Shown here one piece after another: positions 5,619 to 60,019 of a DNA stretch of 64,000 bases. The number at the start of each line of letters is the position of its first letter. Within the stretch, counting starts at the first letter, position 1. The translations under genes were made by a program, and so were the position numbers. The notes beneath the pieces are model-generated. The model saw only the letters and a list, made by a program, of their open reading frames with translations. It ran no database searches and was not told the origin of the DNA. Origin of the DNA: Cytidiella melzeri (lineage: Eukaryota > Basidiomycota > Agaricomycetes > Polyporales > Irpicaceae); assembly GCA_022592445.1 (NCBI GenBank), contig JABYQR010000077.1:62001-126000 (forward strand), written 5' to 3'.

Positions 5619-5623
5619 CTTAG

Positions 5624-6112: not shown

Positions 6113-6117
6113 ACTAT

Positions 6118-6352
6118 TGTAACCCTGCTCACGCAGTTTACCCAATATGTATGTAGATTACGTAATGTAGTTTGACACTGTCATGGACGAGACGTGTGTC
6201 GAACGACTCTCCCTTCTCTACGCTCTACCTTACGACTCTCTTGTACTCTGTACTCGCCCCGTTGTCGCACATCTGGACAATACAGCGCGGTCCTGTTCCT
6301 TTTCTGAACAACCGCGCGCCCCAGTGAAGACGGGCCGCCAACTGGCCTTACA
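6118..6352 (+). repeat. 5' LTR of gag-only element
   Basis: 235-bp terminal repeat, TG...CA, about 92 percent identical to the 3' copy by eye. Nearly all differences are transitions, mostly at CpG sites. It is followed by a T-run; no standard tRNA primer site was recognised. Confidence 0.9.
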
Positions 6353-6539
6353 CTTTTTTTGAACCTCAACCGCTCTGATCTCCGCTCTCGTTTCAACACT
6401 CTATTCCATCCTGGCCGACCGACCGTCTTGAACCAAGGCCCGTGAGTCTGCATGAGCTACAAGTCATGCTACCTCAGCAGATCCGGCGCCATCGCGGATA
6501 TCTTGTCCTTCAGCATCGAAAGACACTCCTCCACATCTG

Positions 6540-38119: not shown

Positions 38120-38999
38120 GCGGAGGAAGAGAGCGAGGAGTGGGGGGGCCAGCATCCTCCTTTGGGGTATAGAGCACGTCCGTATACACTCACACACTAC
38201 TGCTACTAGTTCATGGATATTTTTGATTTCGGTGTTGTCTTTCTTTTCGAGCATGTTCTGTATGTAATTGTGTGGATGTATAAGAGAGATATGAAAATTG
38301 GGTATTTGTTTATTCGCATAAACCTCGTTGTGTGTAGCTACAGTATGTTGGCTATCAGGCGAGAGCGCAACTCTTGGAGGCAAACACTGGTGGGCTGATT
38401 TGTATTGGAATACGTGTTCAACTGATGCAGCATAACGGGGACAGCGGCAAAGACGAGCGTGGTAGGGGAGAATGTCTGTGTCTGTGTGTCGACTTGAAAG
38501 GCCATCTGGCACGAGAGTCAGTCATCGGGGGTTTCCGGTAGTGAATGATACTGTCTGTAAGTCACCCGTGCTGCGTACGGTGACCGATGGGGAGCGATAT
38601 GGGTTGCGCGATGGAGGAGTTGGAAGACTTGGCGTGATGATGGTAGTCGATGGTGTGAGATGCAGAATGAACGTTGATGCATTGACCTGGTGCAGCGTGG
38701 TGAAAAATGTAGAGGTGACAAGCTCGGGCGTAGAGTTCAAGGGGATGGGGACCGGCGTGTATGGGTGAAGCCTGAAGAGACTCAGCTAGATGGTTGGTTG
38801 CTGAAGAGGCCAAGGAGAGCGATGGTATGGACAGGGTGGCATGTTGGAATCAGGGTAGGGGAGGAAGATGAGGAAAGCGAGCACTGCAATAGGGTCTTCA
38901 AGTTGCTGAAGGTAGCTGGTGCAGGCGAGAGGGAAAGTTGAAGTGGGGAGAAGGATAGCAGCAGTGGTGACGTGGCGGGGGAGGGTGAGCTACGAGGAC
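38120..38999. other. Intergenic, pck1 3' flank
   Basis: About 880 bp between pck1 and the outer end of the left duplication arm. Nothing recognised beyond short ORFs. Confidence 0.45.
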
Positions 39000-40316
39000 G
39001 AGGACGAGATGAAGCGTGTTGGCAACAACGAGCAGACCACGGCAAGGGTGTATGCCGAGGACAAAAAATAAGGTCCGACGAGCGAAGAGGAGAATGATGA
39101 AGCTTTCTAGCCAATCATCGTGGCCAGAAGGAGCAAAACAAGGGGCGCGGAAGCAAAACATTGAAGGAAATTGAAGAGGAGAGCGAAGAACGGAAGGCAG
39201 TTGACAATGCGAGTATGTGCGACGTAACTTGCAAATAAATTCAAATAAATTCTCGCAGACAGGAGAAGAAAACATAGTGAGAAGGAATAAAATTTGAGAG
39301 TTGTGTGAGAGGCGAGAAACACACCAATGCCCAAACACCATTGCTCGCTGTTAGTGAGAGCGGCAAAGAGGTTACTTCTTTAGGCCATGCCGTTGTATCG
39401 CCTATTATAAGAAAGTTGTTGGTCCACGTTGAACCCTCGGGGCCGCATCGCTGTCGCCGTTTCTGTCGTTCAAAGCGCGAGAATCGCAGAAACTGCTGGT
39501 TTGCGCTTTGAGCACGGGGTGTGTGCCATGTATCAGCGTTCAGTGGGTCTTTTAGAGCTTGCAGCTGCTTTTGAACTCACTTTCAACTCTGTTCACCGTT
39601 TTCTAGGCCTTTCTAAATGCTGTCGACGTGGCAGGTCGCGTCGAGTGCAGGTCAAAAGCCATGCATCACTGGCCTTTGTCCGTGGTTTGGCGCTGGCTTG
39701 TTTGCGCATCTGTTGAATGGCACCGGTATTGCAATCTGCGAGCCCAAAGCTGGACAACCAATTGAAGATCGTCGCGTCAGAAGAATGAGTGGTAGCCCGG
39801 AAGAACGAGGAACAAAGGAGAAGTGCATTGTCGAATGAGGATGCGTCGCGGTACCTGGATGTGCTCGCGTGGTCGGAGTTCAATTCTGGGCAGTTAGTCT
39901 GACGCGCGACCTCTAGCACCACCCACCCTCTATATCATTTCCCTGTCTCTCGTCATTCATCGTCCACCACCCGTCGTCCCCACTCAATAACAACGCTGTC
40001 CAGAGCACCCTTGGTGTTGTGCGACTGACCTCCTCTACTGCCGGATTTGTTCGCGTAGTTACATCCACCACCACTGGAAACGCGTTGCGCGCTGTCTTTT
40101 GTGCAAGCAGTCGTGTGGCCTTTCCATCCCTGCTCACTTTCCCCTCCTCTGTACCCACACGACAGCATCTACGAGTGCCATCCATTTGTCGAGTGATTCA
40201 TCGTCTCCCCCGCCTCTTTCTTCTGCTCCCATTCGTCCTCGTAATCGTCCTCGTACGCGGTCGTCGTGGTCGCTGTTAAACCTCGAGAAACTCGAATCCG
40301 TCTCTTTAATTTCAGC
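39000..40316. other. Outer arm sequence, no gene recognised
   Basis: About 1.3 kb upstream of the orphan gene. Short ORFs exist in both arms but carry arm-to-arm changes without sign of constraint. No tRNA could be folded. Confidence 0.4.
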
Positions 40317-41730
40317 ATGGACAAACCGAGTACGGCTATGACCAAAGCCAAAACCAGGGCCACAGCGGGCCAGGGCTCGGCCACCACGGCCACCCCCGCG
40401 CAACGTGCGGTCAGAGCGAGGAAGAGGGCCAACGGTGGTCTTAAGTTTGTTAATATTCCTGCGGGCAACAAGATCGTCGATAGACGCAACAGGAATCAGA
40501 ATAAGAAGAACAACTCGACAGGTGAAGTGGCCGCACAGCCAAGTGCACAACCAAGCGGTAGTCAAGTTGTATGTGCTTCAGCTCTTACTTCCGGGTCTTG
40601 TGCTCACGCGTAGGCCACATATTCCAGTCCCAAGAACTTCCTATTGTTCCATATCACCTTCCTCCTGACAGCGAACGTCCTCCCTTTCCTGGAGTACCGT
40701 CACAAGGTTCTGGTGGTCTGCACCCCAGCGAATATCGTGTCGTAAGTGTTCCCTCAGGTGTTCAATCATGTCCTGCGTGTCATCCAACTGAACAACTCTT
40801 CAGGCTCTAGAAGACGGGATGCTCTATCCACGCTCCAACATTTTTATCCTGCCTCCCTATCTCGTCCTGGTCGAGGAAGGAGGAGTACAACGTCTGCGTC
40901 TGCGGAAAAGGTTTTCGAAGTGTGCCCTGCCAGCTGTTGAGCGTTTCTTAAGAACCAACAGTCCCTATAAAATGCCGTTCTATCTCAGCGATGGCATGCC
41001 CACTTTTGAGGAAAAAGAAGCGGCCCCGTTTCGATACTTCGAATGTCAAGACGGGGCATTTGTGTTTCGAACGGAGATAGGCGGGCCGTGGCTATTTCAT
41101 GCTGATGAAGTGGAGGCCCTGCGCCGTGATCCTGAGGGATACCACGAGGATTTGGACATTGAATACCCCATGCCGCCGATGGTCAGTTCCCCGCCAGCTC
41201 CCCTGCCAGCGCCCGACAATACCTTGGGTTCAGAGGGCTATGAGACTCAGACCTCCCATGCCTCGTCGAGCGCGAACATCCCAATGATCGATCCTGCTCT
41301 GGTGAGCTTGGAAAGACCGAAGAAGCGACGTAGGTCCTCGTCTCCCGAGCCGGCGAAGGAAAGTGGTGTTCCACAACAGGAACGGGACGTTAATCTCAAC
41401 AATAACAAGGAGGTCAGCGTTAGAGCCGACTCAGCGCCATTTTTGGACTTTATACCCAACGTGATCCCTGGTGCAAAGCTGAAATGGTCGACTGGCCCAA
41501 GCATGCTGTCCGAGTCCGCTACTTCTGGATCGTCCACGTCTTACCTTGACCACGATCCGTATGCTTCTAGCGAGGACGGCCTGCGGGATTACACACACCT
41601 GCTGTCCGAGTCCGCTACTGTTGGATCGTCCACGTCTTACCTTGACCACGATCGGTATGCTTCTAGCGAGGACGGCCTGCGGGGTTACACACACCTGCTC
41701 TCCGACTCGGAGAATGAGACGTCCGACTGA
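40317..41730 (+). CDS. Orphan protein with C-terminal tandem repeat (left copy)
   Basis: Three exons give 430 residues: 40317-40568, 40628-40741 and 40804-41730. The N-terminus is basic (KRANGGLKF, DRRNRNQNKK). A middle region (about 120-230) looks folded: SNIFILPPYLVLVEEGG, RFLRTNSPYK, a run rich in aromatic residues and a stretch ending GPWLFHADEVEALRRDPEGY. A nuclear-targeting-like KKRRRSSSPEP follows. The last ~70 residues are two near-identical 32-residue units rich in Ser and Asp (SGSSTSYLDHD, YASSEDGL). I do not recognise the family. It is present in both arms, with only a few coding differences (for example Thr versus Asn in the first repeat unit and one Ile/Thr change), and a third, older fragment lies at 51885-52345. 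The start is uncertain: the frame is open upstream to 40266. Confidence 0.65.
41506..41697 (+). repeat. Two 96-bp in-frame repeats in the orphan gene
   Basis: Units 41506-41601 and 41602-41697 start CTGTCCGAGTCCGCTACT and are nearly identical. The same pair occurs in the right arm at 56601-56792 on the minus strand. Confidence 0.9.
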
Positions 41731-42577
41731 GATACAGTTGTTCTGGTGAGCAACCTCCCGGATTCCACCACTCCTCCCGATGACTAACATCATTCTCTTC
41801 TTCCACTGGCAGTATCTCTTCCTCCCTCGATCCTCGACATGTGGGTTGGAGTCCGCTCATGCTCGACTGCCTAGTCGAAGCAAGCATGGCTATACACCCC
41901 GCGACGCATGGCCAATCTACTTCGATTCTCTCGACTTTCTACTTTTTTGAATCCTCTAAAGCCTGCCTGTTGCACGCAAGCGAAGGCTACCCATCATCTC
42001 TCAAGGAGAACGACACCATCATCAGGCTAACACATCACCGTCTCTAATCTACCCATTGTAGCTTAGCCCTCCCCACCATCTCGCTCTGAAGGAGCACGAA
42101 ACGCAATGTACCTCGCTATCTCGTTGTTGCGCTATATTTGCTATGTATCTTTCCCTATCCTTGTATTGCACATCCCTATCGCTAATCACGCTCACGGATT
42201 CGGACTTGACTCTCACACCATCCCACCGCTGTTCGATGCTCGCTCATCCCCCATTGTCATCATTGTTTCCATAGTTTTTCACTGTATCCAGGTTATGGTC
42301 AAGGTTATCCATTAAAGCAGAAAACGTCGTCGTAGTGCTGTACTACTCAGCTATCTCGTTAATGCATACACTCTTCGACAAAATGGCGGCTTTCGCAATG
42401 CGTTGAATCGCGGCTCGCATAGGTAATTTTGAGCCCACGAAAGCACGAGGAGCGTGTGAGAATACGTGCCTACTGTGCATACTAGTTGTACATGCTATAC
42501 TAAGGACAAACTCTCGCATAGCCGTGCGAGTGCCTTGAGTGAGTGTTCATTAGGATGAAGAGCAATAAATATCGAGA
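41731..42577. other. Intergenic between orphan gene and U6, left arm
   Basis: About 850 bp. It includes the orphan 3' flank, whose diverged relative also lies at 51885-52100, and the presumed U6 downstream region. No other gene was recognised. Confidence 0.4.
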
Positions 42578-42626
42578 CCCGTAGGTCTACCACTCCGGGA
42601 AAGCGTGTCATCCTTGTGCAGGGGCC

Positions 42627-42657
<31 letters not shown>

Positions 42658-42681
42658 TTCGTATGTCACCCCGAAGGGGAC
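42578..42681 (-). ncRNA. U6: U6 spliceosomal snRNA (left copy)
   Basis: The minus strand carries the U6 core: AATTGGAACGATACAGAGAA, then GATTAGCATGGCCCCTGC and AAGGATGACACGC, including the ACAGAGA box that pairs with the 5' splice site and the AGC triad for U4/U2 pairing. It is preceded by a small 5' stem-loop (GTCCCC TTCG GGGTGAC). The 3' end is a guess because no run of four or more T follows directly. A TATATTA motif lies about 70 bp upstream. The second copy (55617-55720) is identical over the RNA. Confidence 0.93.
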
Positions 42682-42847
42682 ATTGGAGAATGTGAACGCT
42701 GGGAGGCAAATCAGCGTACTTGCAAATTTTGTTCTACTCGCGGGGGATAATATACATCGACATAAAAACACGGCCTTCAATGTCGTGTAACTGCCAGTGT
42801 CGGTGCTTAGGTGTCTACGGGTACTCCATAATAACAACAATCCGGCA

Positions 42848-43249
42848 ATGGTAGCAGACTCTTCCGAGTCATTTTCGTCGAGGTCCAGTGTTGGGAAGGC
42901 CACAGTGCGACAGCCAATCAGTTCAGCTGCAGTTCCCCTGCCCACGACGCTCATGGCCACCAAAGCAAATCCACTTCCTCTGGACAAAACCCTACGCGAC
43001 CTGGCCCTCCTCACGTCGTGCGACATTGATCTGTCAATTCTCATCCCAAACACAAGTACAATGGCGACGGAAGAGCACTCAGACGTAGACTCGACGGTGG
43101 CGCGTTCGTACGAGTTTGTCCGTGAGGCACGAGCTGCACAGGGCATCCTCAATCGCGAGCAAGTCGAGAAACAGGATGGCAGGGTCGAGGAAATAAGAAA
43201 TACTCTCGATGATGTCGCACAAGGCCTGGGTGCTGCAAGCTCGCAGTGA
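42848..43249 (+). CDS. Small coiled protein of unknown function (left copy)
   Basis: An intronless ORF of 133 residues starts at ATG 42848. The first half is Ser/Pro-rich. The second half (about 85-125) is a charged helix (SYEFVREARAAQGILNREQV...), likely a short coiled coil. I do not recognise it. The antisense frame 42550-43278 is longer but looks like a shadow: it has odd composition and runs through the U6 gene. The gene is divergent from U6, about 170 bp away, and convergent with MED14. An identical copy lies at 55049-55450. Confidence 0.6.
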   Translation: MVADSSESFSSRSSVGKATVRQPISSAAVPLPTTLMATKANPLPLDKTLRDLALLTSCDIDLSILIPNTSTMATEEHSDVDSTVARSYEFVREARAAQGILNREQVEKQDGRVEEIRNTLDDVAQGLGAASSQ

Positions 43250-43702
43250 GGTAGGTCAGTACTCCCGGTCATTGCCATCGCTGTTTAGTAGTCAAGTTTA
43301 TCAAGTACATCCATAGTGCCGATTGTGTTCCCTGATCGTTCTGTTGTTGCTGGAACTTTTGTCATTGCAAGTATCGAAACACTCCATGACCAGCGGTGAC
43401 ATTATTCCTTTGCGAATGGTACTCTACATGGCGATATATATATATCACTCTGTTTCAATCTTCCGAGTCAGTGCAACATGCGTATGCCAGGGAGGACCCT
43501 TTGCCTGAGCACCTGCACCTGTGGCGACGTCCACATTTCCCTCTCGTGGTCTTTCCATCTTTGTGTCAACTCATTCGAATTCTGCTTGCTCGGACATGCT
43601 TCCGCTATGCACACATCAGTCGCACTGGTCATCATGATATTCAAGTTGAACCCGCGTAGATTACATATTACTATATCATAACAGAACAAGTCTCCCAAGA
43701 CT
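43250..43702. other. Tail-to-tail spacer, small ORF / MED14
   Basis: About 450 bp between two convergent genes; nothing recognised. Confidence 0.4.
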
Positions 43703-46700
43703 TTAAGGTTGAATAATCCCTTTCTCCTTCAAAATCTTTTGAACTCTCTCGTGCAGCACCCGGCCCACCGTCCTGACTGCCGAAGAATGGCAAATCATCC
43801 CAACATCAATAGAGACAACCTTTCTTGAAGCTCCAGTATCTGTGATATCCTTGCGAACTTCAAGAACAATTGAACGAAAGTCAGGAATGGGCTGCAGTAT
43901 CAAACTGCTATCACCCGAGTCTTTATGTTCGCCAGCGTTGAAGAGAGAGCTCGAACCGTCCATAATGAGCACCTGCGCACTCGACATAACCCTGAAATCG
44001 AGCGCGTGTCTACGCATTCGTGAGATTGAGTCAAGAGAACTATCGGAGGAGGAATAGAGAATAATCTATACCTGAGGTCGCCATACAAGACTCGGAACCA
44101 GCCGGCGGTTTTGGGGAATGTGTCGACGTTCTCTCCTGCCTTCTGAGCCTTGATGCGGATGTACTCAAGCTCTGCAACAATAGGCAAGGTTTCCCGAAGC
44201 AGCGCGACGAGTCTGTGAAGAGCCTGCACGAGAGGCGTCTTACGCAGGATGTCTCGTAAGAAGGGCTCCACGTCCTCGTGCGGATTGTACTGCGCTAGGA
44301 TCGTCTCTATGTCCGCTGTGCTCTCATCCACGATCTCCGGCACATCCAGCCCGCGTGAGAAACTGAGCTCGAAGGAGCCGCCAGTCGGGGAGAGCTGATC
44401 GACACAAGTTATGGACACGTTGTAGCCAGCCGCATAAGAAAATTCGACAGTCTGGAGATCAAAGGACAATAGTCGCACATCTGTCCATTTGAACTTGATG
44501 GCCATTTGTGCGACTAGAGAGGACATAAGTTATGTTACAGCTGGAACACAATGGCCGACGTACCTTCTCGCGCGATGACAACCATCTTCGACACCCGGGC
44601 CCATTCTTCTGAAAACTCGTCTACGCACTTGTCCACATCCTCCGATAGAAAGGTAACTACCGCGTCTCTCGTATCGTATATAATGCGTTTGGAGGGGCGA
44701 ATCACGGCACTGCTTCCTGCTCGTTTACCGACAGGTTGCTGCACATACTTAAGTTTTACGCATGTGACGACTTGCGGTTTCTGTTCGGACCACCAGTTCA
44801 GAGGTATGACGCGGATGTTTGGCATAGCGGCTTCCGCAGCTGGGGCTCCAGAGAGGATATCTGAGGCCTGCACGCAGAGTGAAGGGACTGAGCGCGCTAA
44901 AGAGGAGTGGACGTGCGCAAGAACTGCCAGCGAGGACTCGGAATAGCTCGGTTCGACGTGCTTGTATGCAATACCCCGTGACTTTAGCTGCATCTCAACC
45001 TTTGTGTACGCGACACGGGCACTAAGAACAATGAACACAGTACGAGAGTAGGCGCAATCGATAAACTTACCAACAGTAAGCGTAAAGCTCTCGTAGGACT
45101 TGTGTATCCAGACGAAAGCTATCGATGTCCGAATTTCAGCTCTTTTGTTCATGGTATATGAACCTCAGGGCACTCACCTGGCTGATGCTCTCTGTTCGCC
45201 CAAGCGACTGGAAGCAATCAACCCTGTGCCATCGCCCTCGTAGATTGACCGTTTACGTTTTAGGCCGGCGGCAGCAACAGCATCTAGGCCAGATCGCTGC
45301 TGTAACACTGCGTCTTCGCCATGGATCCGCTTCACGTCAAGCCAGCCGATATCTTCCATTATCAGTTCGGCGTACATAGAATCCCTTCGCTCTTTCACAG
45401 ATATCAGTGCGTAGCGGAACTCCTCATCGGTAATGACAAGAACAAGGTAGTGATAGGGAAATGTCGCGAGTTGAATGTAGAGCGTGCCTCGAGCTGTTGG
45501 ACCCAGCTTTTGGAGCTCTGTAAATATATTTAGTCTGAGTCCCGCGTCACAACAAGACTGCATTCATGGGCACATACCGTCACGGCTGAAGTTGCGCTGC
45601 CGGAAGCTGCGTAGGCCGAGGTAGTTCACTTTCTGTTCAGCAAGGTCTGTGATAGTCTGCAAGGCACTGCTGGTCAGTATGCGATCATATGGATACAATA
45701 GAGAACGTACGTTGAATCGCAGCCGTACAAGCGCCTCGGGTAGTTGACTAGGAGTTACATTGATTGCGTCCGAGATACTTGAAAACTTGGGACCTCTCCC
45801 GGCCGCTGCCAAATCCCCAGTATCACGCATGCTAATTCTACCTGTCCTAGGATCTATGGTGATGATGACAACCTCGTCGGCGCATAGGTGTGTTCGTAAC
45901 ACCAACGCTCCTTCTAGTCCGTCGGTGTGAGGTCGTGGCAAGCGCATGATCCCTCCAGGAGTACTTACGTTCCGTTACAAGAACCACTTCTTCGGGAGGA
46001 CCGAAGACAGACCGGTAAGGGCCTTGTTGAAGTTGAAGTTGGTACATATATAGAATGGCCTTCGTGTGTCTCCATATGACTTTGCGCAGAAGTTGCTCTA
46101 CGTCAAGATCATCGGCGTTCTACCACCATCTGCTGTCAGGAACTGTGAGTGGGGAACAGATATACTAACTACTAACAACGATAAGCACGTCCGGTGGCAC
46201 AGCCGCGTCATCTTGAGAGATTTGAATACCCAGTGCTGCACGCTGAGGTTCCCATTTGACAGATATCTTCATACTCTCAACCTGGTCGGATGCCTGGGTT
46301 TTGACCTGGATATCTTGAGCTTGCGCCCGCTGTCCTAGCTTCACACGCTCCTGCAGTTCGGCGAGCACACGATCTCGAGGAGTGCGATGAGTTCTTGGAG
46401 GTGGTTGTGATACTTGGTGTGGTAACTGCGTTTGGCTTTGTGTGTTTTGACTCGTAGACGTGCGAACAGGCAACGACGGGGCTGTTGGTATTGGCGGTGC
46501 GGACTGCGTAGGTATAATGGAGATTGTCAGAGTACCACCGAAAAGCGGTATTTTCGAGCGAGGTGGAGGACGACCGGGTATAGTTGGCGGAGGCTTACGT
46601 CTGTTGGATACAAACGAGTGAAATTTTAGACATATATAATCAATAATGGAACGTACATCCAGTAAGACAGCGTCAGCGTTCGTCTATCATTGCCCATATT

Positions 46701-48070
46701 AACGGTGAGATATTCTCCCCATCCAAGCGAGCGCATTCGCTCCGCCTAATGCGGGGTTGTTTCTTGAGACAATTTTGATCTTTGCAACCAAAATTCACGT
46801 ACCTGATACCATAGAATCTCCAGCTGGTACGACAACGACATCATCTCTGCAAAGCCTCATGAATAGAACGAATGGTATTGTTGTACGTCAGGACCTACGC
46901 AAAAAGTTGTATAGGCGCACGAGAGGGGCATCGAAGACACCATCCGGAAGCTGATGCTTCTGGGTTTCTGGCTGTCCATCCGGAGCAGGAGGTATGTCAT
47001 CAGGTGGCGGTAAGTAAAAGGCTAGGCGTCCGTCAGCTTCATCTGCGATATGTCGCCTCATCCCGCCCGTAGGTCTTCTAGGAAACTCTGTTTGAGGGTA
47101 TCAATCAGATAAGTCGGGAGTCGTGAGCGAGGCAATGTCCTGCAACGCAGTTTCCGCTAACCTTGCATTCCCGTGACATCACCACCAACGGTGAACAGGA
47201 AATCGACATCGACGAAGAACCAACCATCATCTTTTTTCGCACCTTTCAAGGAGAGAGACACCTCAAACAACTGATGCACTGTGAAGAATACTCGTCCGTC
47301 ACTGATGCGGTAGTTGCACATTTCATGGGGAATGAGTTCCTGCATTCGCAAGCGGTAGCGCATGACGTCTTCAATCTCAGCAAGCGTCTGGCTTATTTTC
47401 TCAGCAGAAAAAGGTGTTGGAGGTATGATAAATGTCTACTGTATATCAGGGATATGTACAAGAGCACAGGGTGGTGAAACTAACCTTGATAGCAGATGGG
47501 AGCCGCCGATAAGTACCCGTAGTCAGAACATCGAGAGAAGTGAGAAGGTCGTGGTTTCGGAGCCTGGCAGAGTCCAACCCGTCTCGAGCAGACTTAAGAC
47601 CGTCGATTGCTTCCTCAAACTGGCGGTTCTGGTCCATGAGAAACGCTGTAATGTTCTGCGGACCTTCAGCACTCGTGCAGAAGCAATGATTACTTGAGCT
47701 GACCATAGCTTTCTGTACAACTGCCGCGTCCCTCGACCACTTCACAACTGCGTACAACTTTACAACCTGCTTCTTGGTTTTGACAACCCACTCAGCGATT
47801 ATCCTCTTGCGCTGAGGATCAGACATGTGTGGCATGCTGGTATCACAGTCAGACGACTTCTGTTATCCTGTATGATGAGACTACTCACGTCTCTGCAAGC
47901 TCAGTGAGCTCGGCGTACATAGCTTGCGCCATGCGCGAGACCAGCTCTGCCAGAGGAACTTGACCATCGCGTACAAGCGGCAACTCGAGTTCAAGTGCTT
48001 CTTTGGACGGAAATTGTGGTAATCCATTGGGTACACTGTCTGATGTACAAGTCAGAACCTGCTGTTCCAT
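43703..48070 (-). CDS. MED14: Mediator complex subunit 14 (Med14/Rgr1)
   Basis: Sixteen exons give 1177 residues: 48070-47889, 47836-47704, 47655-47485, 47435-47162, 47087-46899, 46846-46803, 46745-46657, 46600-46177, 46119-45969, 45913-45711, 45656-45578, 45517-45178, 45118-45071, 45021-44564, 44513-44072 and 44009-43703. The N-terminal MED14 block is clear: LPLVRDGQVPLAELVSRMAQ, KTKKQVVKLYAVVKW, LTTGTYRRLP, then IPPTPFSAEKI and DAPLVRLYNFL...LSYQLEILWYQAERMRSLGWG. Med14 is the backbone that links the Mediator head, middle and tail in the nucleus for RNA polymerase II transcription. The start is the first ATG of exon 1; the frame is open a little further up. Intron 2 (47656-47703) is 48 nt, in frame. 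Exons 10-16 are duplicated in the right arm. It is divergent from MCM2. Confidence 0.93.
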
Positions 48071-48487
48071 GTCATGAGGATTTGCGGGATTGTATGCCAA
48101 ACAGGTGGCGGTAAGTGGGTAAGGAATAAAGGATCAATAATGAACGGGGCGACTGAGAACAATGAGCGTCGTCTTTGCTAAATCGGGCTTATGCCGGGAT
48201 GGGCGGATCAAAATATCCATATAAGGAGACAGGCGGGGACTTGCTCCCCGCCGCGGCACCTCGGACTGAGGTTGTTCTCAACTCCTCCTATGTGTACGCC
48301 ATGTCAATCAAATACCAAGGAAAATGTGTGAACACAGCTTCGGTGTCTGCGGTGCTCTCTGCACAGTGTTCGTGCGTTGTTTGCATCTGTTGACGCGTTT
48401 GAAACTCAGCCAAGATAATAATTGGAACGCGTCAACGGGTCGCGACGTGCAGCATCTCTCCCCAGTAACCCTCCATACGACAACGGC
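48071..48487. promoter_or_regulatory. Divergent promoter region, MED14 / MCM2
   Basis: 417 bp separate the two head-to-head start codons of a transcription core gene and a replication core gene. No specific element was assigned; the motif ACGCGT/GACGCG occurs near 48390 and 48427, similar to cell-cycle (MluI-type) boxes, which would fit MCM2. Confidence 0.5.
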
Positions 48488-51400
48488 ATGGTGAGCATTA
48501 TTCCCTTGAGCGCGTTTGAATGTGCCATAACAATGTCTAGTCTGCACCTCGTCGCACGAAACGCAGGCGTTCAGCCTCACCCCAAGCAGGGTCTTCGCCG
48601 CCAGGACCGGGCGCAGACGACGCCGAGTCTTCGTTGCCACCATCGTCTCCTCCTGCGCCGTTTTCAGACACAGACGACAGTGTGGATGACAGAGATGCCG
48701 TGCAAGATGCTGACGACGCGGCTGATGAAGACGAAGATGGGGAAGATCTTTTCGGCGAGAACTTGGAAGAGTAAGTCTTTGTCAATGGTTATTCGCAATT
48801 TCCATGGGTGTGTCCTTATATCACGCGTTTTACAGTGACTATGCTGTTAAGGAAGTCTTAGACCGCTACTCCGACGCTGATTTAGACGATGAGGAGGAAT
48901 ACGCCGCGTTGTCAGCTAGTCAACGTCGCGCGGCCGAGGCGAAGATGGATCGACGGGATCGATTTGAGCGAAGAGGTGGGACAGGCTCGCGCGCAGCTCG
49001 TCGAACACGCTATCCAGGCTTTTTGGAGAGCGACGACATGGAAGATGAAGATATGGCAGGTGGCGGGCTGTTATCCCAAATGAAACGGCGAACAAGGAGA
49101 CAATACGATGAGCGGAAAGACCTAGATGACCTTGACGGCGTTGAAGATGTGCGGCTCTGTCTTTTCCCTTATCTCCCAGCTAATATATGGGTCATTATTA
49201 GGAAATACCTCTGGAGCAGCTGAGCGATATCAAAGCCAAGTCTATCGTGGAATGGATTGCCAACGAGCGCGTGCGCCGCTCAATTGTCCGACATTTCAGG
49301 CAGTTTCTCATGACTTACGTTGATGAGCATGGCTCTTCAGTGTATGGTCAACGCATTCGAAGCTTGGGCGAAAGTATGTTGGTGAAAACATTTGTCAATT
49401 TATTCCACTAACGCGGCACGCCGACAGACAACTCCGAATCACTCGAAGTGTCCTATCTACACCTCGCAATGTCCAAGCCCATACTTGCATATTTCCTTAC
49501 GAATTCTCCATCAGCCATGCTCGCCATCTTTGACGAAGTTGCGCTCGCTGCCATCCTGGTCTACTACCCTTCGTACAAACGTATCCATTCAGAAGTTCAT
49601 GTTCGCATCACGGATCTACCGTTGAGCTCGTCACTGCGTGATCTGCGGCGCACAAACTTGAACAACCTTGTTCGTGTATCAGGAGTGGTCACTAGGCGGA
49701 CTGGTGTCTTCCCACAGCTGAAGTATGTCAAGTTCGACTGTCGTAAATGTGGCGCCGTTTTGGGCCCTTTCTATCAGGACTCTACGCAGGAAGTCAGAAT
49801 TAGCTACTGCCCTAACTGCGAGGGTAGGGGTCCATTCTCAGTCAATTCTGAACAGGTATGCTCTTATAGTGACTATGCGGGTTTTCTACTTACATATGTC
49901 CAAAGACAATTTATCGAAACTACCAAAAGATGACTCTCCAGGAGTCGCCTGGCTCAGTACCTCCTGGTAGGCTACCGAGGCACCGCGAAGTAGTCCTGCT
50001 GTGGGATTTGATCGATTCCGCCAAACCGGGAGAGGAAATTGTGAGACCGTGTCACAGCATATTGCGTCTTCCGTCTTCCGTTGCGCTGACCTCCGTTTCC
50101 CAGGAAGTCACTGGTGTTTACAGAAACAATTTCGACGCATCACTGAATGCCAAGAACGGCTTCCCAGTATTCTCGACGATGATCGAGGCGAACCATATCA
50201 ACAAGAAGGAAGACCAGTTCGCTGCTTTCCGTCTGACCGAGGAAGATGAGAAAGAAATTCGTGCTCTGGCAAGAGATGAACGTATTCGAAAGCGTATCAT
50301 CAAGTCTATCGCGCCTTCCATTTATGGTCATGAGGACATCAAGACGGCTATCGCGCTTTCGCTTTTCGGCGGCGTTCCCAAGGATATCAACCGCAAGCAC
50401 AGAATTCGTGGTGATATCAACGTCCTGCTTTTGGGCGACCCTGGAACAGCGAAGTCTCAGTTCCTCAAGTACGTTGAGAAAACAGCGCATCGCTCAGTCT
50501 TCGCTACGGGCCAGGGTGCGTCAGCTGTGGGTCTCACAGCAAGTGTTCGGAAAGACCCTGTCACTCGCGAATGGACACTTGAAGGCGGTGCCTTAGTTTT
50601 AGCAGACAAGGGTACTTGTCTGATCGACGAATTCGACAAGATGAACGATGCAGACAGAACATCTATTCACGAAGCAATGGAACAGCAATCAATCTCTATC
50701 TCCAAAGCCGGCATCGTGACCTCTCTCCAGGCCCGCTGTGCCATCATCGCTGCTGCCAACCCAATTCGCGGGAGATATAATCCAACAATTCCGTTCCAGC
50801 AGAACGTAGAGTTGACCGAGCCCATCCTCTCACGTTTCGACATTCTCTGCGTCGTTAAAGACGCAGTGGATCCCGTTCAAGATGAGATGCTTGCTCGGTT
50901 TGTCGTCGGCAGCCACCTGAGAAGCCATCCAAAATTCGAGGCAGAAAAGGATGAGATGGACGTTGGCACGACTTTGGACGCAGACGTAAGTTTAGCTATC
51001 AATCCGCGCTGCATCAATGAGATTGAAGGTGTTCTGCATAGTTAATCCCGCAAGATACTCTGCGAAAGTACATCATGTACGCGCGCGAAAAGGTTCGCCC
51101 AAAGTTATTCGACCTAGATCAGGAGAAGTTATCCCGTCTGTTTGCTGATCTCCGCCGCGAATCCCTGGCCACTGGTTCTTATCCGGTCACTGTTCGTCAT
51201 TTCGAAAGCATGATACGTATGTCGGAAGCCAGTGCGAAGATGGCTTTGCGAGAATACGTTCGAGCAGACGATGTCGATCTTGCCATCTCAGTCACCGTTG
51301 GTAGCTTCGTGAGCGCTCAGAAAATGTCCATCAAGAAAACTCTAGAGCGAGTAAGTGGACCATGAGGTTTCGTTGGCAGCTGCACTCTAATGAGCTTTCC

Positions 51401-51730
51401 ATATCAGGGCTTCCGAAAATACCTAACCCAAGCTCGAGACCATGAAGAGCTGCTCGCGTTCCTACTTGGTCAGATCGTTAAGGAGAAGGTACATCTGTAC
51501 CAGCTGCAGAGGCGCGATCAACCTGCCTCAGTCACAGTAAAAGTCACAGAGCTCGATGAGCGCGTGAGTAGTTTCCGATACGCATTGGGAAACTCTACTG
51601 ATCCCAAGTCTTCCAGGCTAAAGAACATGATATTTTTGATACCGCACCCTTCCTTCGTTCCAAACTGTTCGTCACTAACGGTTACAAAATCGCCGACGGT
51701 GCCATTGAGAAAGTTTTTCGCACTAGTTAG
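48488..51730 (+). CDS. MCM2: DNA replication licensing factor Mcm2
   Basis: Ten exons give 913 residues: 48488-48490, 48541-48770, 48836-49148, 49202-49373, 49428-49855, 49906-50040, 50104-50985, 51042-51350, 51408-51563 and 51617-51730. The first coding exon is just ATG. The acidic N-terminus ([11 protein letters not shown]) and the block [15 protein letters not shown] mark it as Mcm2 rather than another MCM. A zinc finger (CRKC...CPNC) lies near 343, Walker A GDPGTAKS near 538, Walker [10 protein letters not shown] near 599 and the arginine finger SRFD near 669. Mcm2 is one of six subunits of the replicative helicase loaded at origins. The 63-nt intron 50041-50103 is in frame without stops. 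Exon 6 uses an AAG acceptor. Only about 150 bp separate its end from the duplicated material. Confidence 0.95.
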
Positions 51731-51884
51731 AGAAGGAGCCGGCGAGATGTGCATAGGTCAGTCGCTTGGACCTAGAGTCAAACACTGTGTCTTCAATATG
51801 TTGTGCCCCCGCTTTCGGCTTTGTCCTTGTACAAAAAGTCCCCTCTCGTTGTTTGTTTGAGATACTATATATCTGCCAAATTGA

Positions 51885-52345
51885 CCTCATGATGGTGTCG
51901 TTCTCCTTGGGTAGCCGTCGCTTGCGTACAGCAAGCAGGCTTTAGCGGTTGTTAAGAGCGTACTGTGAGTCGTAAATAATCATAGAAAGCAGGAAGTCGA
52001 GGGGATCGAAGGTGGGTGCCCATGCGTCGCGGGGTATGTAGCCCTGCTTGCTTCAACTAGGCAGTCAAGTGCGAGCGGACTCCAATCTGCGTGTTGAGGA
52101 TCGAGGGAGGAAGAGATGCTGCCAGTGGAAGAGCGGTCGCTCACCAGATCAACTGGATCTCAGACGTCACATCATCCGAGTCGGAGGGCAAGTGTATGCA
52201 ATCCGACAGTCCGTCCTCGCTGGGAGTACTATCCAGAACGTAATCAAAGTAAGGCGTTGGCGGTCCAGAAACACCTGACTCGGAGAGCGTGCTTGGGCCA
52301 GTCGACTGTCCCAGGTCTGCATCGGCCTGTGGCCTTCCCAACACG
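51885..52345 (-). pseudogene. Diverged 3' fragment of the orphan gene
   Basis: The segment aligns with the 3' end and flank of the right-arm orphan gene (roughly 56270-56800) on the same strand, with many substitutions and gaps. Shared blocks include ATGGTGTCGTTCTCCTT, CATGCGTCGCGGGGT and GAGGATCGAGGGAGGAAGAG. On the minus strand it still has an open frame of 67 codons (52344-52141) with a single, degenerate repeat unit (LSESG.SGPPTPYFDY). It lacks everything upstream and stops at the right-arm edge. It is therefore an older copy already present before the inverted duplication. Confidence 0.8.
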
Positions 52346-52384
52346 GGATCCTGCGCTTGCTATAACCTCACACCGACGGACTAG

Positions 52385-54595
52385 AAGGAGCGTTGGTGTT
52401 ACGAACACACCTATGCGCCGACGAGGTTGTCATCATCACCATAGATCCTAGGACAGGTAGAATTAGCATGCGTGATACTGGGGATTTGGCAGCGGCCGGG
52501 AGAGGTCCCAAGTTTTCAAGTATCTCGGACGCAATCAATGTAACTCCTAGTCAACTACCCGAGGCGCTTGTACGGCTGCGATTCAACGTACGTTCTCTAT
52601 TGTATCCATATGATCGCATACTGACCAGCAGTGCCTTGCAGACTATCACAGACCTTGCTGAACAGAAAGTGAACTACCTCGGCCTACGCAGCTTCCGGCA
52701 GCGCAACTTCAGCCGTGACGGTATGTGCCCATGAATGCAGTCTTGTTGTGACGCGGGACTCAGACTAAATATATTTACAGAGCTCCAAAAGCTGGGTCCA
52801 ACAGCTCGAGGCACGCTCTACATTCAACTCGCGACATTTCCCTATCACTACCTTGTTCTTGTCATTACCGATGAGGAGTTCCGCTACGCACTGATATCTG
52901 TGAAAGAGCGAAGGGATTCTATGTACGCCGAACTGATAATGGAAGATATCGGCTGGCTTGACGTGAAGCGGATCCATGGCGAAGACGCAGTGTTACAGCA
53001 GCGATCTGGCCTAGATGCTGTTGCTGCCGCCGGCCTAAAACGTAAACGGTCAATCTACGAGGGCGATGGCACAGGGTTGATTGCTTCCAGTCGCTTGGGC
53101 GAACAGAGAGCATCAGCCAGGTGAGTGCCCTGAGGTTCATATACCATGAACAAAAGAGCTGAAATTCGGACATCGATAGCTTTCGTCTGGATACACAAGT
53201 CCTACGAGAGCTTTACGCTTACTGTTGGTAAGTTTATCGATTGCGCCTACTCTCGTACTGTGTTCATTGTTCTTAGTGCCCGTGTCGCGTACACAAAGGT
53301 TGAGATGCAGCTAAAGTCACGGGGTATTGCATACAAGCACGTCGAACCGAGCTATTCCGAGTCCTCGCTGGCAGTTCTTGCGCACGTCCACTCCTCTTTA
53401 GCGCGCTCAGTCCCTTCACTCTGCGTGCAGGCCTCAGATATCCTCTCTGGAGCCCCAGCTGCGGAAGCCGCTATGCCAAACATCCGCGTCATACCTCTGA
53501 ACTGGTGGTCCGAACAGAAACCGCAAGTCGTCACATGCGTAAAACTTAAGTATGTGCAGCAACCTGTCGGTAAACGAGCAGGAAGCAGTGCCGTGATTCG
53601 CCCCTCCAAACGCATTATATACGATACGAGAGACGCGGTAGTTACCTTTCTATCGGAGGATGTGGACAAGTGCGTAGACGAGTTTTCAGAAGAATGGGCC
53701 CGGGTGTCGAAGATGGTTGTCATCGCGCGAGAAGGTACGTCGGCCATTGTGTTCCAGCTGTAACATAACTTATGTCCTCTCTAGTCGCACAAATGGCCAT
53801 CAAGTTCAAATGGACAGATGTGCGACTATTGTCCTTTGATCTCCAGACTGTCGAATTTTCTTATGCGGCTGGCTACAACGTGTCCATAACTTGTGTCGAT
53901 CAGCTCTCCCCGACTGGCGGCTCCTTCGAGCTCAGTTTCTCACGCGGGCTGGATGTGCCGGAGATCGTGGATGAGAGCACAGCGGACATAGAGACGATCC
54001 TAGCGCAGTACAATCCGCACGAGGACGTGGAGCCCTTCTTACGAGACATCCTGCGTAAGACGCCTCTCGTGCAGGCTCTTCACAGACTCGTCGCGCTGCT
54101 TCGGGAAACCTTGCCTATTGTTGCAGAGCTTGAGTACATCCGCATCAAGGCTCAGAAGGCAGGAGAGAACGTCGACACATTCCCCAAAACCGCCGGCTGG
54201 TTCCGAGTCTTGTATGGCGACCTCAGGTATAGATTATTCTCTATTCCTCCTCCGATAGTTCTCTTGACTCAATCTCACGAATGCGTAGACACGCGCTCGA
54301 TTTCAGGGTTATGTCGAGTGCGCAGGTGCTCATTATGGACGGTTCGAGCTCTCTCTTCAACGCTGGCGAACATAAAGACTCGGGTGATAGCAGTTTGATA
54401 CTGCAGCCCATTCCTGACTTTCGTTCAATTGTTCTTGAAGTTCGCAAGGATATCACAGATACTGGAGCTTCAAGAAAGGTTGTCTCTATTGATGTTGGGA
54501 TGATTTGCCATTCTTCGGCAGTCAGGACGGTGGGCCGGGTGCTGCACGAGAGAGTTCAAAAGATTTTGAAGGAGAAAGGGATTATTCAACCTTAA
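52385..54595 (+). pseudogene. Truncated MED14 copy, exons 10-16 only
   Basis: Exons 52385-52587, 52642-52720, 52781-53120, 53180-53227, 53277-53734, 53785-54226 and 54289-54595 mirror MED14 exons 10-16, with all splice sites and frame intact and no protein change seen. They encode residues 553-1177 of Med14. The N-terminal 552 residues, including the conserved MED14 domain, and the promoter are missing. It could only be expressed from a new promoter; the first Met is near 52468. The lack of decay means the copy is very young or is kept identical by gene conversion with the left arm. Confidence 0.9.
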
Positions 54596-55048
54596 AGTCT
54601 TGGGAGACTTGTTCTGTTATGATATAGTAATATGTAATCTACGCGGGTTCAACTTGAATATCATGATGACCAGTGCGACTGATGTGTGCATAGCGGAAGC
54701 ATGTCCGAGCAAGCAGAATTCGAATGAGTTGACACAAAGATGGAAAGACCACGAGAGGGAAATGTGGACGTCGCCACAGGTGCAGGTGCTCAGGCAAAGG
54801 GTCCTCCCTGGCATACGCATGTTGCACTGACTCGGAAGATTGAAACAGAGTGATATATATATATCGCCATGTAGAGTACCATTCGCAAAGGAATAATGTC
54901 ACCGCTGGTCATGGAGTGTTTCGATACTTGCAATGACAAAAGTTCCAGCAACAACAGAACGATCAGGGAACACAATCGGCACTATGGATGTACTTGATAA
55001 ACTTGACTACTAAACAGCGATGGCAATGACCGGGAGTACTGACCTACC
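54596..55048. other. Tail-to-tail spacer, right arm
   Basis: Mirror of 43250-43702; nothing recognised. Confidence 0.4.
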
Positions 55049-55450
55049 TCACTGCGAGCTTGCAGCACCCAGGCCTTGTGCGACATCATCGAGAGTATTT
55101 CTTATTTCCTCGACCCTGCCATCCTGTTTCTCGACTTGCTCGCGATTGAGGATGCCCTGTGCAGCTCGTGCCTCACGGACAAACTCGTACGAACGCGCCA
55201 CCGTCGAGTCTACGTCTGAGTGCTCTTCCGTCGCCATTGTACTTGTGTTTGGGATGAGAATTGACAGATCAATGTCGCACGACGTGAGGAGGGCCAGGTC
55301 GCGTAGGGTTTTGTCCAGAGGAAGTGGATTTGCTTTGGTGGCCATGAGCGTCGTGGGCAGGGGAACTGCAGCTGAACTGATTGGCTGTCGCACTGTGGCC
55401 TTCCCAACACTGGACCTCGACGAAAATGACTCGGAAGAGTCTGCTACCAT
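55049..55450 (-). CDS. Small coiled protein of unknown function (right copy)
   Basis: Identical at protein level to the left-arm copy 42848-43249 (133 residues, one exon): a Ser/Pro-rich half followed by a charged helix. Its 5' flank, including the divergent U6 gene, is duplicated as well, so its promoter should be intact. The function is not recognised. An 18-bp piece of this ORF (55393-55410) recurs at the inner junction of the right arm. Confidence 0.6.
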   Translation of the reverse strand: MVADSSESFSSRSSVGKATVRQPISSAAVPLPTTLMATKANPLPLDKTLRDLALLTSCDIDLSILIPNTSTMATEEHSDVDSTVARSYEFVREARAAQGILNREQVEKQDGRVEEIRNTLDDVAQGLGAASSQ

Positions 55451-55616
55451 TGCCGGATTGTTGTTATTATGGAGTACCCGTAGACACCTAAGCACCGACA
55501 CTGGCAGTTACACGACATTGAAGGCCGTGTTTTTATGTCGATGTATATTATCCCCCGCGAGTAGAACAAAATTTGCAAGTACGCTGATTTGCCTCCCAGC
55601 GTTCACATTCTCCAAT

Positions 55617-55640
55617 GTCCCCTTCGGGGTGACATACGAA

Positions 55641-55671
<31 letters not shown>

Positions 55672-55720
55672 GGCCCCTGCACAAGGATGACACGCTTTCC
55701 CGGAGTGGTAGACCTACGGG
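55617..55720 (+). ncRNA. U6: U6 spliceosomal snRNA (right copy)
   Basis: Same RNA as the left-arm copy on the opposite strand: 5' stem-loop, ATTGGAACGATACAGAGAAG, TAGCATGGCCCCTGC and GGATGACACGC. The upstream TATATTA near 55543 is also present, so both copies may be transcribed by RNA polymerase III. The 3' boundary is approximate. Confidence 0.93.
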
Positions 55721-56567
55721 TCTCGATATTTATTGCTCTTCATCCTAATGAACACTCACTCAAGGCACTCGCACGGCTATGCGAGAGTTTGTCCTTAGTA
55801 TAGCATGTACAACTAGTATGCACAGTAGGCATGTATTCTCACACGCTCCTCGTGCTTTCGTGGGCTCAAAATTACCTATGCGAGCCGCGATTCAACGCAT
55901 TGCGAAAGCCGCCATTTTGTCGAAGAGTGTATGCATTAACGAGATAGCTGAGTAGTACAGCACTACGACGACGTTTTCTGCTTTAATGGATAACCTTGAC
56001 CATAACCTGGATACAGTGAAAAACTATGGAAACAATGATGACAATGGGGGATGAGCGAGCATCGAACAGCGGTGGGATGGTGTGAGAGTCAAGTCCGAAT
56101 CCGTGAGCGTGATTAGCGATAGGGATGTGCAATACAAGGATAGGGAAAGATACATAGCAAATATAGCGCAACAACGAGATAGCGAGGTACATTGCGTTTC
56201 GTGCTCCTTCAGAGCGAGATGGTGGGGAGGGCTAAGCTACAATTGGTAGATTAGAGACGATGATGTGTTAGCCTGATGATGGTGTCGTTCTCCTTGAGAG
56301 ATGATGGGTAGCCTTCGCTTGCGTGCAACAGGCAGGCTTTAGAGGATTCAAAAAAGTAGAAAGTCGAGAGAATCGAAGTAGATTGGCCATGCGTCGCGGG
56401 GTGTATAGCCATGCTTGCTTCGACTAGGCAGTCGAGCATGAGCGGACTCCAACCCACATGTCGAGGATCGAGGGAGGAAGAGATACTGCCAGTGGAAGAA
56501 GAGAATGATGTTAGTCATCGGGAGGAGTAGTGGAATCCGGGAGGTTGCTCACCAGAACAACTGTATC
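55721..56567. other. Intergenic between U6 and orphan gene, right arm
   Basis: Mirror of the left-arm interval 41731-42577, with no further gene. Confidence 0.4.
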
Positions 56568-57981
56568 TCAGTCGGACGTCTCATTCTCCGAGTCGGAGAG
56601 CAGGTGTGTGTAACCCCGCAGGCCGTCCTCGCTAGAAGCATACCGATCGTGGTCAAGGTAAGACGTGGACGATCCAACAGTAGCGGACTCGGACAGCAGG
56701 TGTGTGTAATCCCGCAGGCCGTCCTCGCTAGAAGCATACGGATCGTGGTCAAGGTAAGACGTGGACGATCCAGAATTAGCGGACTCGGACAGCATGCTTG
56801 GGCCAGTCGACCATTTCAGCTTTGCACCAGGGATCACGTTGGGTATAAAGTCCAAAAATGGCGCTGAGTCGGCTCTAACGCTGACCTCCTTGTTATTGTT
56901 GAGATTAACGTCCCGTTCCTGTTGTGGAACACCACTTTCCTTCGCCGGCTCGGGAGACGAGGACCTACGTCGCTTCTTCGGTCTTTCCAAGCTCACCAGA
57001 GCAGGATCGATCATTGGGATGTTCGCGCTCGACGAGGCATGGGAGGTCTGAGTCTCATAGCCCTCTGAACCCAAGGTATTGTCGGGCGCTGGCAGGGGAG
57101 CTGGCGGGGAACTGACCATCGGCGGCATGGGGTATTCAATGTCCAAATCCTCGTGGTATCCCTCAGGATCACGGCGCAGGGCCTCCACTTCATCAGCATG
57201 AAATAGCCACGGCCCGCCTATCTCCGTTCGAAACACAAATGCCCCGTCTTGACATTCGAAGTATCGAAACGGGGCCGCTTCTTTTTCCTCAAAAGTGGGC
57301 ATGCCATCGCTGAGATAGAACGGCATTTTATAGGGACTGTTGGTTCTTAAGAAACGCTCAACAGCTGGCAGGGCACACTTCGAAAACCTTTTCCGCAGAC
57401 GCAGACGTTGTACTCCTCCTTCCTCGACCAGGACGAGATAGGGAGGCAGGATAAAAATGTTGGAGCGTGGATAGAGCATCCCGTCTTCTAGAGCCTGAAG
57501 AGTTGTTCAGTTGGATGACACGCAGGACATGATTGAACACCTGAGGGAACACTTACGACACGATATTCGCTGGGGTGCAGACCACCAGAACCTTGTGACG
57601 GTACTCCAGGAAAGGGAGGACGTTCGCTGTCAGGAGGAAGGTGATATGGAACAATAGGAAGTTCTTGGGACTGGAATATGTGGCCTACGCGTGAGCACAA
57701 GACCCGGAAGTAAGAGCTGAAGCACATACAACTTGACTACCGCTTGGTTGTGCACTTGGCTGTGCGGCCACTTCACCTGTCGAGTTGTTCTTCTTATTCT
57801 GATTCCTGTTGCGTCTGTCGACGATCTTGTTGCCCGCAGGAATATTAACAAACTTAAGACCACCGTTGGCCCTCTTCCTCGCTCTGACCGCACGTTGCGC
57901 GGGGGTGGCCGTGGTGGCCGAGCCCTGGCCCGCTGTGGCCCTGGTTTTGGCTTTGGTCATAGCCGTACTCGGTTTGTCCAT
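56568..57981 (-). CDS. Orphan protein with C-terminal tandem repeat (right copy)
   Basis: Exons 57981-57730, 57670-57557 and 57494-56568 give 430 residues, the mirror of the left-arm gene. Only a few coding differences were noticed: Asn for Thr in the first 32-residue repeat unit and minor changes further out. Splice sites and frame are intact, so both copies could be functional. A basic N-terminus, a folded middle and a Ser/Asp-rich repeated tail are all present. The family is not recognised. Confidence 0.65.
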
Positions 57982-59280
57982 GCTGAAATTAAAGAGACGG
58001 ATTCGAGTTTCTCGAGGTTTAACAGCGACCACGACGACCGCGTACGAGGACGATTGCGAGGACGAATGGGAGCAGAAGAAAGAGGCGGGGGAGACTATGA
58101 ATCACTCGACAGATGGATGGCACTCGTAGATGCTGTCGTGTGGGTACGGAGGAGGGGAAAGTGAGCAGGGATGGAAAGGCCACACGACTGCTTGCACAAG
58201 AGACAGCGCGCAACGCGTTTCCAGTGGTGGTGGATATAACTACGCGAACAAATCCGGCAGTAGAGGAGGTCAGTCGCACAACACCAAGGGTGCTCTGGAC
58301 AGCGTCGTTATTGAGTGGGGACGACGGGTGGTGGACGATGAATGACAAGAGACAGGGAATTGATATAGAGGGTGGGTGGTGCTAGAGGTCGCGCGTCAGA
58401 CTAACTGCCCGGAATTGAACTCCGACCACGCGAGCACATCCAGGTACCGCGACGCATCCTCATTCGACAATGCACTTCTCCTTTGTTCCTCGTTCTTCCG
58501 GGCTACCACTCATTCTTCTGACGCAACGATCTTCAATTCGTGTCCAGCTTTGAGCTCGCAGATTGCAATACCGGTGCCATTCAACAGATGCGCAAACAAG
58601 CCAGCGCCAAACCACGGACAAAGGCCAGTGATGCATGGCTTTTGACCTGCACTCGACGCGACCTGCCACGTCGACAGCATTTAGAAAGGCCTAGATAACG
58701 GTGAACAGAGTTGAAAGTGAGTTCAAAAGCAGCTGCAAGCTCTAAAAGACCCACTGAACGCTGATACATGGCACACACCCCGTGCTCAAAGCGTAAACCA
58801 GCAGTTTCTGCGATTCTCGCGCTTTGAACGACAGAAACGGCGACAGCGATGCGGCCCCGAGGGTTCAACGTGGACCAACAACTTTCTTATAATAGGCGAT
58901 ACAACGGCATGGCCTAAAGAAGTAACCTCTTTGCCGCTCTCACTAACAGCGAGCAATGGTGTTCGGGCATTGGTGTGTTTCTCGCCTCTCACATAAATCT
59001 CAAATCTTATTCCTTCTCACTATGCTTTCTTCTCCTGTCTGCGAGAATTTTTTTGGATTTATTTGCAAGTTACGTCGCACATTCTCGCATTGTCAACTGC
59101 CTTCCGTTCTTCGCTCTCCTCTTCAATTTCCTTCAATGTTTTGCTTCCGCGCCCATTGATACGCTCGATGATTGGCTGGATGCCTCACCCATTCTCGTTT
59201 TTACTTGTCGGACCTTGTTTTTGTCCTCGGCATACACCCTTGCCGTGCTCTGCTTGTTGTTCTCGACCTCGTCGACGTTA
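57982..59280. other. Outer right-arm sequence, no gene recognised
   Basis: Mirror of 39000-40316 with increasing divergence outward; nothing recognised. Confidence 0.4.
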
Positions 59281-59460
59281 GTGCTCTGCAAAAATACCAT
59301 TATAATGCAATATAATCTCAGAATATCATTAAATACCCATTAAATACTCGCTTGTGGAATTGTTTTTAGAATACGATTACCATTAAATACAATACAATAC
59401 ATTACAATACAATACAGTACTATTCCTGTATTTAATGGTATTCTAGAATATTATGCATGT
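59281..59460. repeat. AT-rich stretch with CATTAAATAC repeats and a hairpin
   Basis: CATTAAATAC occurs at 59327, 59338 and 59381, followed by a run of AATAC units (59386-59416). The segment TAGAATAC..CCATTAAATAC (59367-59390) pairs with GTATTTAATGGTATTCTA (59418-59435) as an imperfect inverted repeat. It begins right where the right duplication arm ends and is absent from the left side. Confidence 0.7.
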
Positions 59461-59591
59461 GACAAGTTTTGAGCACATGCATGTATGTACAGCCTCTTTC
59501 CTACAATTTGCACTGTTCATGCACCCATACACAGTTTTTCAATGCTGCATAGCTACCTTAATCATTTGCACTGCCTTTGTTTTGCACTGCT

Positions 59592-59872
59592 TGTTGTAAT
59601 TCAATGACGCGCTAAGTGACGCGTCTCTTCCCATACAAGGAAACCCCGACTGATTCCTTTCTTGTTTCCGCTCCGGCCTCTTCATTCATACTTTCCGTCT
59701 CGGCTTACTTGTATTTGTATTATCCGTTCCGCCCTGTATCCTGTATCCGCGCTGCCCAATATGTGTTATCCTTAATTTTGTATTACTATATAATCACTTG
59801 TGTTCTCCATGATAATGTTATCTGCTCATTTTTCTGCTCTCACTCGTGCGTTCGCATCCTCTCGCAACAACA
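59592..59872 (+). repeat. Probable 5' LTR of the copia element
   Basis: The 3' edge (AACAACA, 59872) is set by the adjacent primer site. The 5' edge is tentative, placed at TGTTGTAAT. A TATATAATC motif near 59787 could be the promoter. Confidence 0.55.
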
Positions 59873-59896
59873 GGTTATGAGCCCCGCGCTCTAACC
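59873..59896 (+). other. Primer-binding site, half-tRNA iMet type
   Basis: GGTTATGAGCCCCGCGCT directly follows the LTR. It is complementary to the anticodon-stem and D-arm side of initiator tRNA-Met (GGGCTCATAACC), the primer half used by copia-type elements. Confidence 0.7.
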
Positions 59897-60019
59897 GCAC
59901 GAGAATTCCACCCATCAAGCTCTATACTTGAACTCTATTGAACTAGGCGACAGTACGTCGGCATTAAGCCCGTAGGCCATCATTATCTCTATCTTTTTGA
60001 TCTTGCAATTAGATCTACT

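Follow-up and report, generated by a model that had tools for sequence, protein, structure and literature searches.

A palindrome with near-identical ~6.8-kb arms around MCM2 and the 5′ half of MED14 in Cytidiella melzeri

Known inverted repeats and the C. melzeri palindrome

The palindromes of mammalian sex chromosomes are described as large inverted arms, >99% alike, with a spacer between them and with gene conversion maintaining the likeness (PMC8981503). In the flip/flop mating-type loci of Ogataea, Komagataella and Ascoidea, genes lie in a loop between the copies of an inverted repeat, and recombination turns that loop round (PMC6692504). The same source also documents inverted repeats in yeasts that had been lengthened by one assembler and ran to contig ends; in two of the three cases the copies differed by 1 nt and in the third they were identical (PMC6692504). 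The C. melzeri palindrome described here looks like a known kind of structure, an inverted duplication with near-identical arms. At human Xq28, inverted repeats surround the emerin and filamin A genes and the loop is recurrently inverted, and these repeats likewise enclose two genes; a literature search on emerin/filamin with inverted repeats returned nothing. In the literature searched, by titles and abstract starts, there was nothing on Cytidiella melzeri or on Irpicaceae with an inverted duplication, and no mention of this locus.

The window analysed here, a stretch of 64,000 nt without N bases, comprises positions 62001-126000 on a contig of 146,652 bp, one of 731 in the 49.7-Mb genome of C. 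melzeri, a polypore of the family Irpicaceae. A repeat search and BLASTN both recovered the pair of inverted arms that a preliminary description had reported, with the left arm at 39131-45953 (forward) and its inverted copy, the right arm, at 52345-59166 (reverse), ~6.8 kb each, facing opposite ways and both terminating within the contig. Weaker homology extends to 39024 on the left and to 59261 on the right. The repeat search reported two adjoining pairs, 39757-45953 with 52345-58541 (6,197 nt, 100% after rounding) and 39131-39756 with 58541-59166 (626 nt, 98%), and with the weak ends included the BLASTN alignment of 39024-45953 to 59261-52345 has 6,931 columns at 99.08% identity, with 49 mismatches and 5 gap openings. 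A chance origin is out of the question for a match of such length. The outer limits first proposed, 39000 and 59280, are slightly too wide, as only 79 of the 95 columns compared in 39024-39130 agree, and the constant sum of mirrored coordinates, 98298, is found inside 39757-45953 only, being 98297 further out, after a single-base indel at 39756. The loop (45954-52344; 6,391 bp) contains the 5′ half of MED14, MCM2, an ORF-A-like fragment and a junction filler, and an own-genome search matched none of it elsewhere except the stretch 51885-52323.

The locus therefore has long inverted arms that are >99% identical around a unique spacer, as gene-converting palindromes do, and in this resembles the mammalian sex-chromosome palindromes, although those belong to sex chromosomes and may be over 1 Mb long (PMC8981503), whereas the C. 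melzeri arms are of 6.8 kb, are only partly homogenised and are partly made up of members of a dispersed gene family. When 244,484 bases of the C. melzeri genome were compared with themselves, further inverted pairs turned up. Two of these form an older palindrome of the same ORF family (C491:290-2359 / 4769-6818 and C586:1481-3239 / 5648-7388), with arms 93-94% alike and a loop of about 2.4 kb; the two versions, 98.4% alike across 6,126 columns, are possibly two haplotypes. Another (C358:1-1346 / 2282-3628; 1,347 columns, 99.85%) lies at the very end of its contig, and is either real or an end artefact.

Genes of the arms, loop and flanks

Each arm had been said to hold a U6 gene, two ORFs and the 3′ exons of MED14, and all of these were located. 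The U6 snRNA genes, at 42576-42681 (reverse) in the left arm and 55617-55722 (forward) in the right, score 86.3 bits each; with the best 48 of 2,894 candidates scored, the genome has at least nine U6 matches above the Rfam cut-off, including these two, and at least two below it. ORF-B, at 40317-41730 (forward) and 56568-57981 (reverse), belongs to a family of 430-447-aa proteins, and where the arms differ the right copy carries the residue of P0001. No Pfam family matched ORF-B, and a database search gave two matches, both from C. melzeri. The second ORF, ORFx, occupies 42848-43249 (forward; 133 aa as read from a start codon of our choosing) and 55049-55450 (reverse). It has 43 database hits, one of them its own record, and the others span 66-83% of ORFx; the 10 of the 43 that carry an organism name are all from fungi, nine of which we take to be polypores, and a scan for ORFx relatives in viral contigs confirmed none.

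The complete MED14 gene (43703-48070, reverse) encodes 1,216 aa in 14 exons with 13 introns according to a gene model of our own, built from the genomic sequence, in which the exon numbers are provisional and an in-frame intron near 45700 may have been read through. Exons 1-8 of the model are in the loop and exons 9-14 in the left arm. The earlier placement of the loop-side arm edge within a MED14 intron agrees with this model, as the left arm's inner edge falls in intron 8 (45914-45968, reverse), with GTAAGT at 45968 and TAG at 45914. A truncated second copy of the MED14 3′ half (52345-54595, forward) is present in the right arm and, lacking the 5′ half of the gene, is presumably a pseudogene. 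The two arms are the only places in the genome at which an own-genome search matched the MED14 half of the arm. As had also been proposed, MED14 should come out the same from a crossover between the arms, whichever way the loop then faces, since the two arms have an identical MED14 part, with zero arm differences in 42467-45933.

That the loop carries MED14 and MCM2 is borne out by Pfam matches to PF08638 (4e-28) and PF00493 (2.3e-102). MCM2 extends over 48488-51860 (forward; limits approximate), with PF00493 and PF17207 on 49873-51042. No MAT genes were detected among the three loop ORFs compared with Pfam; these are Med14, MCM and one without a hit (46165-46680), which is part of MED14 in our model. 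MED14 and MCM2 are essential genes in yeast. The locus shares the geometry of the yeast flip/flop loci, and just as the Ogataea repeat is part of the gene SLA2 (PMC6692504), the C. melzeri repeat includes part of MED14. In the flip/flop loci, inversion carries MAT genes from expressed to repressed positions and back (PMC6692504), whereas MED14 and MCM2 take up the C. melzeri loop, and turning it round should leave the protein unchanged.

To the left of the palindrome is PCK1, encoding an ATP-type PEP carboxykinase (36095-38119, forward; limits approximate; PF01293, 1.2e-89, on 37061-37579 only), and 42 nt separate its stop codon from the dispersed homology that begins at 38162. The outer end of the right arm adjoins a high-copy dispersed repeat (59280-59591, forward) that is present at 95-99% identity in at least 36 other places among the best 40 of 188 candidates. 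It is followed, within the high-copy repeat, by a Copia-type LTR retrotransposon (59592-64000, forward) with its second LTR just past the window, 97.9% alike over 284 nt. A tandem array of about 8.8 copies of a 143-nt unit is present at window positions 191-1447.

The dispersed family, the old locus and the inner junction

The outer half of each arm is a member of a dispersed multi-copy family. On the left, the dispersed segment (38162-42586, forward) comprises the spacer, ORF-B and the 3′ flank to U6, and has relatives on contigs C707, C358, C82, C89, C491, C586 and C228. The closest, designated K (C707:51415-56064), is 97% identical and ~44 kb off on the same contig as the palindrome; two copies on C358, one on C82 and one on C89 are 92-95% identical, and older copies on C491, C586 and C228 have about 82% identity. 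The ORF-B family was counted by BLAST hits and, as the second C358 copy and the C82 copy are identical across the aligned segment and may be one locus, the copy numbers are upper limits. K (C707:51415-57742) is inverted relative to the left arm and direct relative to the right arm, and larger inversions or deletions are therefore also possible.

The copies of the dispersed segment do not share termini as those of a transposon would, but stop variously at 42794/42839, 42905 and 43327 on one side and at 38162, 38219 and 38439 on the other, and the C358 and C89 copies remain alike beyond these ends. A U6-targeting transposon, considered as copies stop near the U6 3′ end, was rejected, as C358 and C89 show element insertions there. 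In C358 an element (C358:25237-25570) is inserted at or close to the 3′ end of U6; its ends, TGTTGAGC...GCTCAACA, are LTR-like, and it is accompanied by a CCGTA duplication. C89 has a different mobile element (C89:28845-30760), likewise at or close to the 3′ end of U6, with a TAA duplication and the inverted ends CACTACGTCAAA.

On the sequence evidence, the left copy is the old locus, with the order PCK1 - ORF-B - U6 - ORFx - MED14 - MCM2. The spacer, which begins 42 nt past the stop codon of PCK1, is common to the five close copies looked at, and the older, ~82% copies (C228, C491, C586) have the same ORF-B/spacer order; in C586, U6 and ORFx sequence is found about 1.2 kb from ORF-B, and in C491 ORFx sequence is present on the same contig as the ORF-B copy. 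MED14 is continuous from the loop through the left arm. The right arm opens inside the MED14 intron, and is preceded by a filler and, adjoining MCM2, an ORF-family fragment. By this arrangement of intron start, filler and fragment ahead of the right MED14 piece, the right arm is read as the duplicate and its inner junction as composite.

The fragment (51885-52323, reverse; 439 nt) is ORF-A-like, consisting of the 3′ end and natural 3′ flank of a truncated ORF-B-family member, and this sequence beside MCM2 is collinear with its relatives. The filler (52324-52344, forward) is 21 nt in length, identical to a dispersed repeat, and the 21-mer GGCCTGTGGCCTTCCCAACAC has 15 exact occurrences in the genome, this junction included, with one more at one mismatch. 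At 13 sites the 21-mer lies within one longer dispersed repeat, which in four of the 13 breaks off on one side within the stretch read. The repeat containing it shares a ~24-nt block (one mismatch) with ORFx, and the C358 filler site is the point at which ORFx passes into the dispersed repeat.

It could be argued from this region that the arms were once direct repeats, a former tandem duplication of which one copy was turned by an inversion of about 38162-51981, since in all five close copies (5/5) the sequence continues at 38162 into an ORF-A 3′ end resembling the fragment at 51982. However, the sequence across 51982 is collinear with two copies on C491, two on C586, C228 and the C89 piece, so that 51982 is no break in the window and the junction is instead derived in the five close copies, and we consider such a history very improbable. 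The idea that 38162 and 51982 are the ends of one broken unit, separated by a 13.8-kb inversion, was likewise rejected by the collinearity of C491, C228 and C586.

Divergence of the arms and a proposed history

With K as a yardstick, substitutions between the left (L) and right (R) arms are distributed in zones. In the outer zone of the alignment, 39131-40481, the arms differ from each other (28/1350) about as much as from K (L-K 30/1351; R-K 30/1350). In the middle zone, 40482-42575, they differ at only 5/2094 positions (L-K 57/2087; R-K 56/2087), and in the core, 42587-45933, at 0/3347, a count to be read with the more constrained sequence of the core (MED14 exons, ORFx and U6), in which about 907 bases are non-coding by our model. 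Both arms differ evenly from K, by 2.2-2.7%. By Fisher's test, the L-R difference between outer and middle zones has p = 1.5e-7 and that between middle and core p = 0.008, whereas for L-K, outer versus middle gives p = 0.38. The outer-versus-middle contrast fits arms that are more alike than their age predicts, and a chimeric origin would give the same main contrast. An allele table, read against K and four copies from C358, C82 and C89, assigned 13 of the 28 outer substitutions to the left arm alone and 10 to the right arm alone, with 5 mixed.

Both extreme edges depart from this pattern. Four substitutions fall within the terminal 20 bp of the inner edge (4/20; p = 9e-10 versus the core, Fisher's test). 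Over the outer edge, 39024-39130, 15-18 of 95 columns separate the right arm from each of the seven other rows, whereas 0-3 of 107 separate the left arm, K and the copies on C358, C82 and C89 from one another, and the edge therefore changed fast in the right arm only, a change that perhaps dates from the joining of this arm.

These differences bear on the improbable alternative that the palindrome is an assembly artefact, a single-copy region written twice or mis-joined. There is the precedent of the assembler-lengthened yeast repeats (PMC6692504), and haplotype-like duplicates seem to be present in the assembly, as in the 98.4% likeness of C491 and C586. The yeast repeats, however, are at contig ends and identical or one base apart (PMC6692504), and the C. 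melzeri arms show neither, ending inside their contig and differing at 49 sites. At the right inner edge there are a filler, a piece of another gene and four substitutions within 20 nt. After a consensus mix-up one would expect equal arm middles and loop-side ends that still differ, but here the loop-side part is identical. The arm differences and the right inner junction speak against a simple assembly duplicate.

We consider it moderately probable that the locus arose by inverted segmental duplication and that gene conversion between the arms later homogenised the inner 5.4 kb. The stretch from the MED14 intron out to the ORF-B spacer would have been copied from the left locus and attached, facing the other way, to a broken gene of the ORF family next to the end of MCM2. 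The join would have picked up filler from a dispersed repeat, as in template-switching repair during break-induced replication, for which template switching has been described (PMC3678771), although this step is one that we infer. The arms would then have exchanged sequence, with conversion homogenising the inner 5.4 kb but neither the outer 1.35 kb nor the two extreme edges. Gene conversion is proposed because divergence is zoned while both arms differ evenly from K. The oddness of the right arm at 39024-39130 sits badly with conversion alone, and escape by itself does not explain it; error-prone joining could account for the divergence of the extreme edges at both ends. A crossover in place of conversion would be expected to turn the 6.4-kb loop round with no damage to MED14.

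The main rival is a recent chimeric duplication without later conversion, the inner 5.4 kb coming from the left arm with a switch near 40480 to another family copy. Several close family copies exist, break-induced replication has been described as switching templates (PMC3678771), the inner-junction filler shows that a third sequence took part, the clustered changes at both extreme edges fit error-prone joining, and the main divergence step is accounted for without any conversion. In 39131-40481, however, the right arm is no nearer to any of the six other copies in the divergence alignment, which left out C228 and C586, than it is to the left arm, and a chimeric donor would therefore have to be unsampled. 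The contrast of 5/2094 with 0/3347 is also not expected, and with the edges would need another cause. We regard this origin as possible but unlikely, and retain duplication followed by conversion as the preferred history.

If the assembly is right, the locus offers a naturally occurring example, in a wood-decaying basidiomycete, on which the origin of inverted duplications and the homogenisation of their arms can be tested, of a size suited to ordinary PCR and long reads, with K, a third family copy on the same contig, as an internal clock. With the second half of MED14 present twice, gene-copy counts and MED14 knock-outs in C. melzeri would need care. There is no sign that the palindrome has been selected for. 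It is tentatively conceivable that the palindrome is active in the mycelium, with the loop present in both orientations and the MED14 3′ half drawn from either of two conversion-maintained copies; C. melzeri would then have an essential Mediator gene with a self-repairing spare 3′ half.
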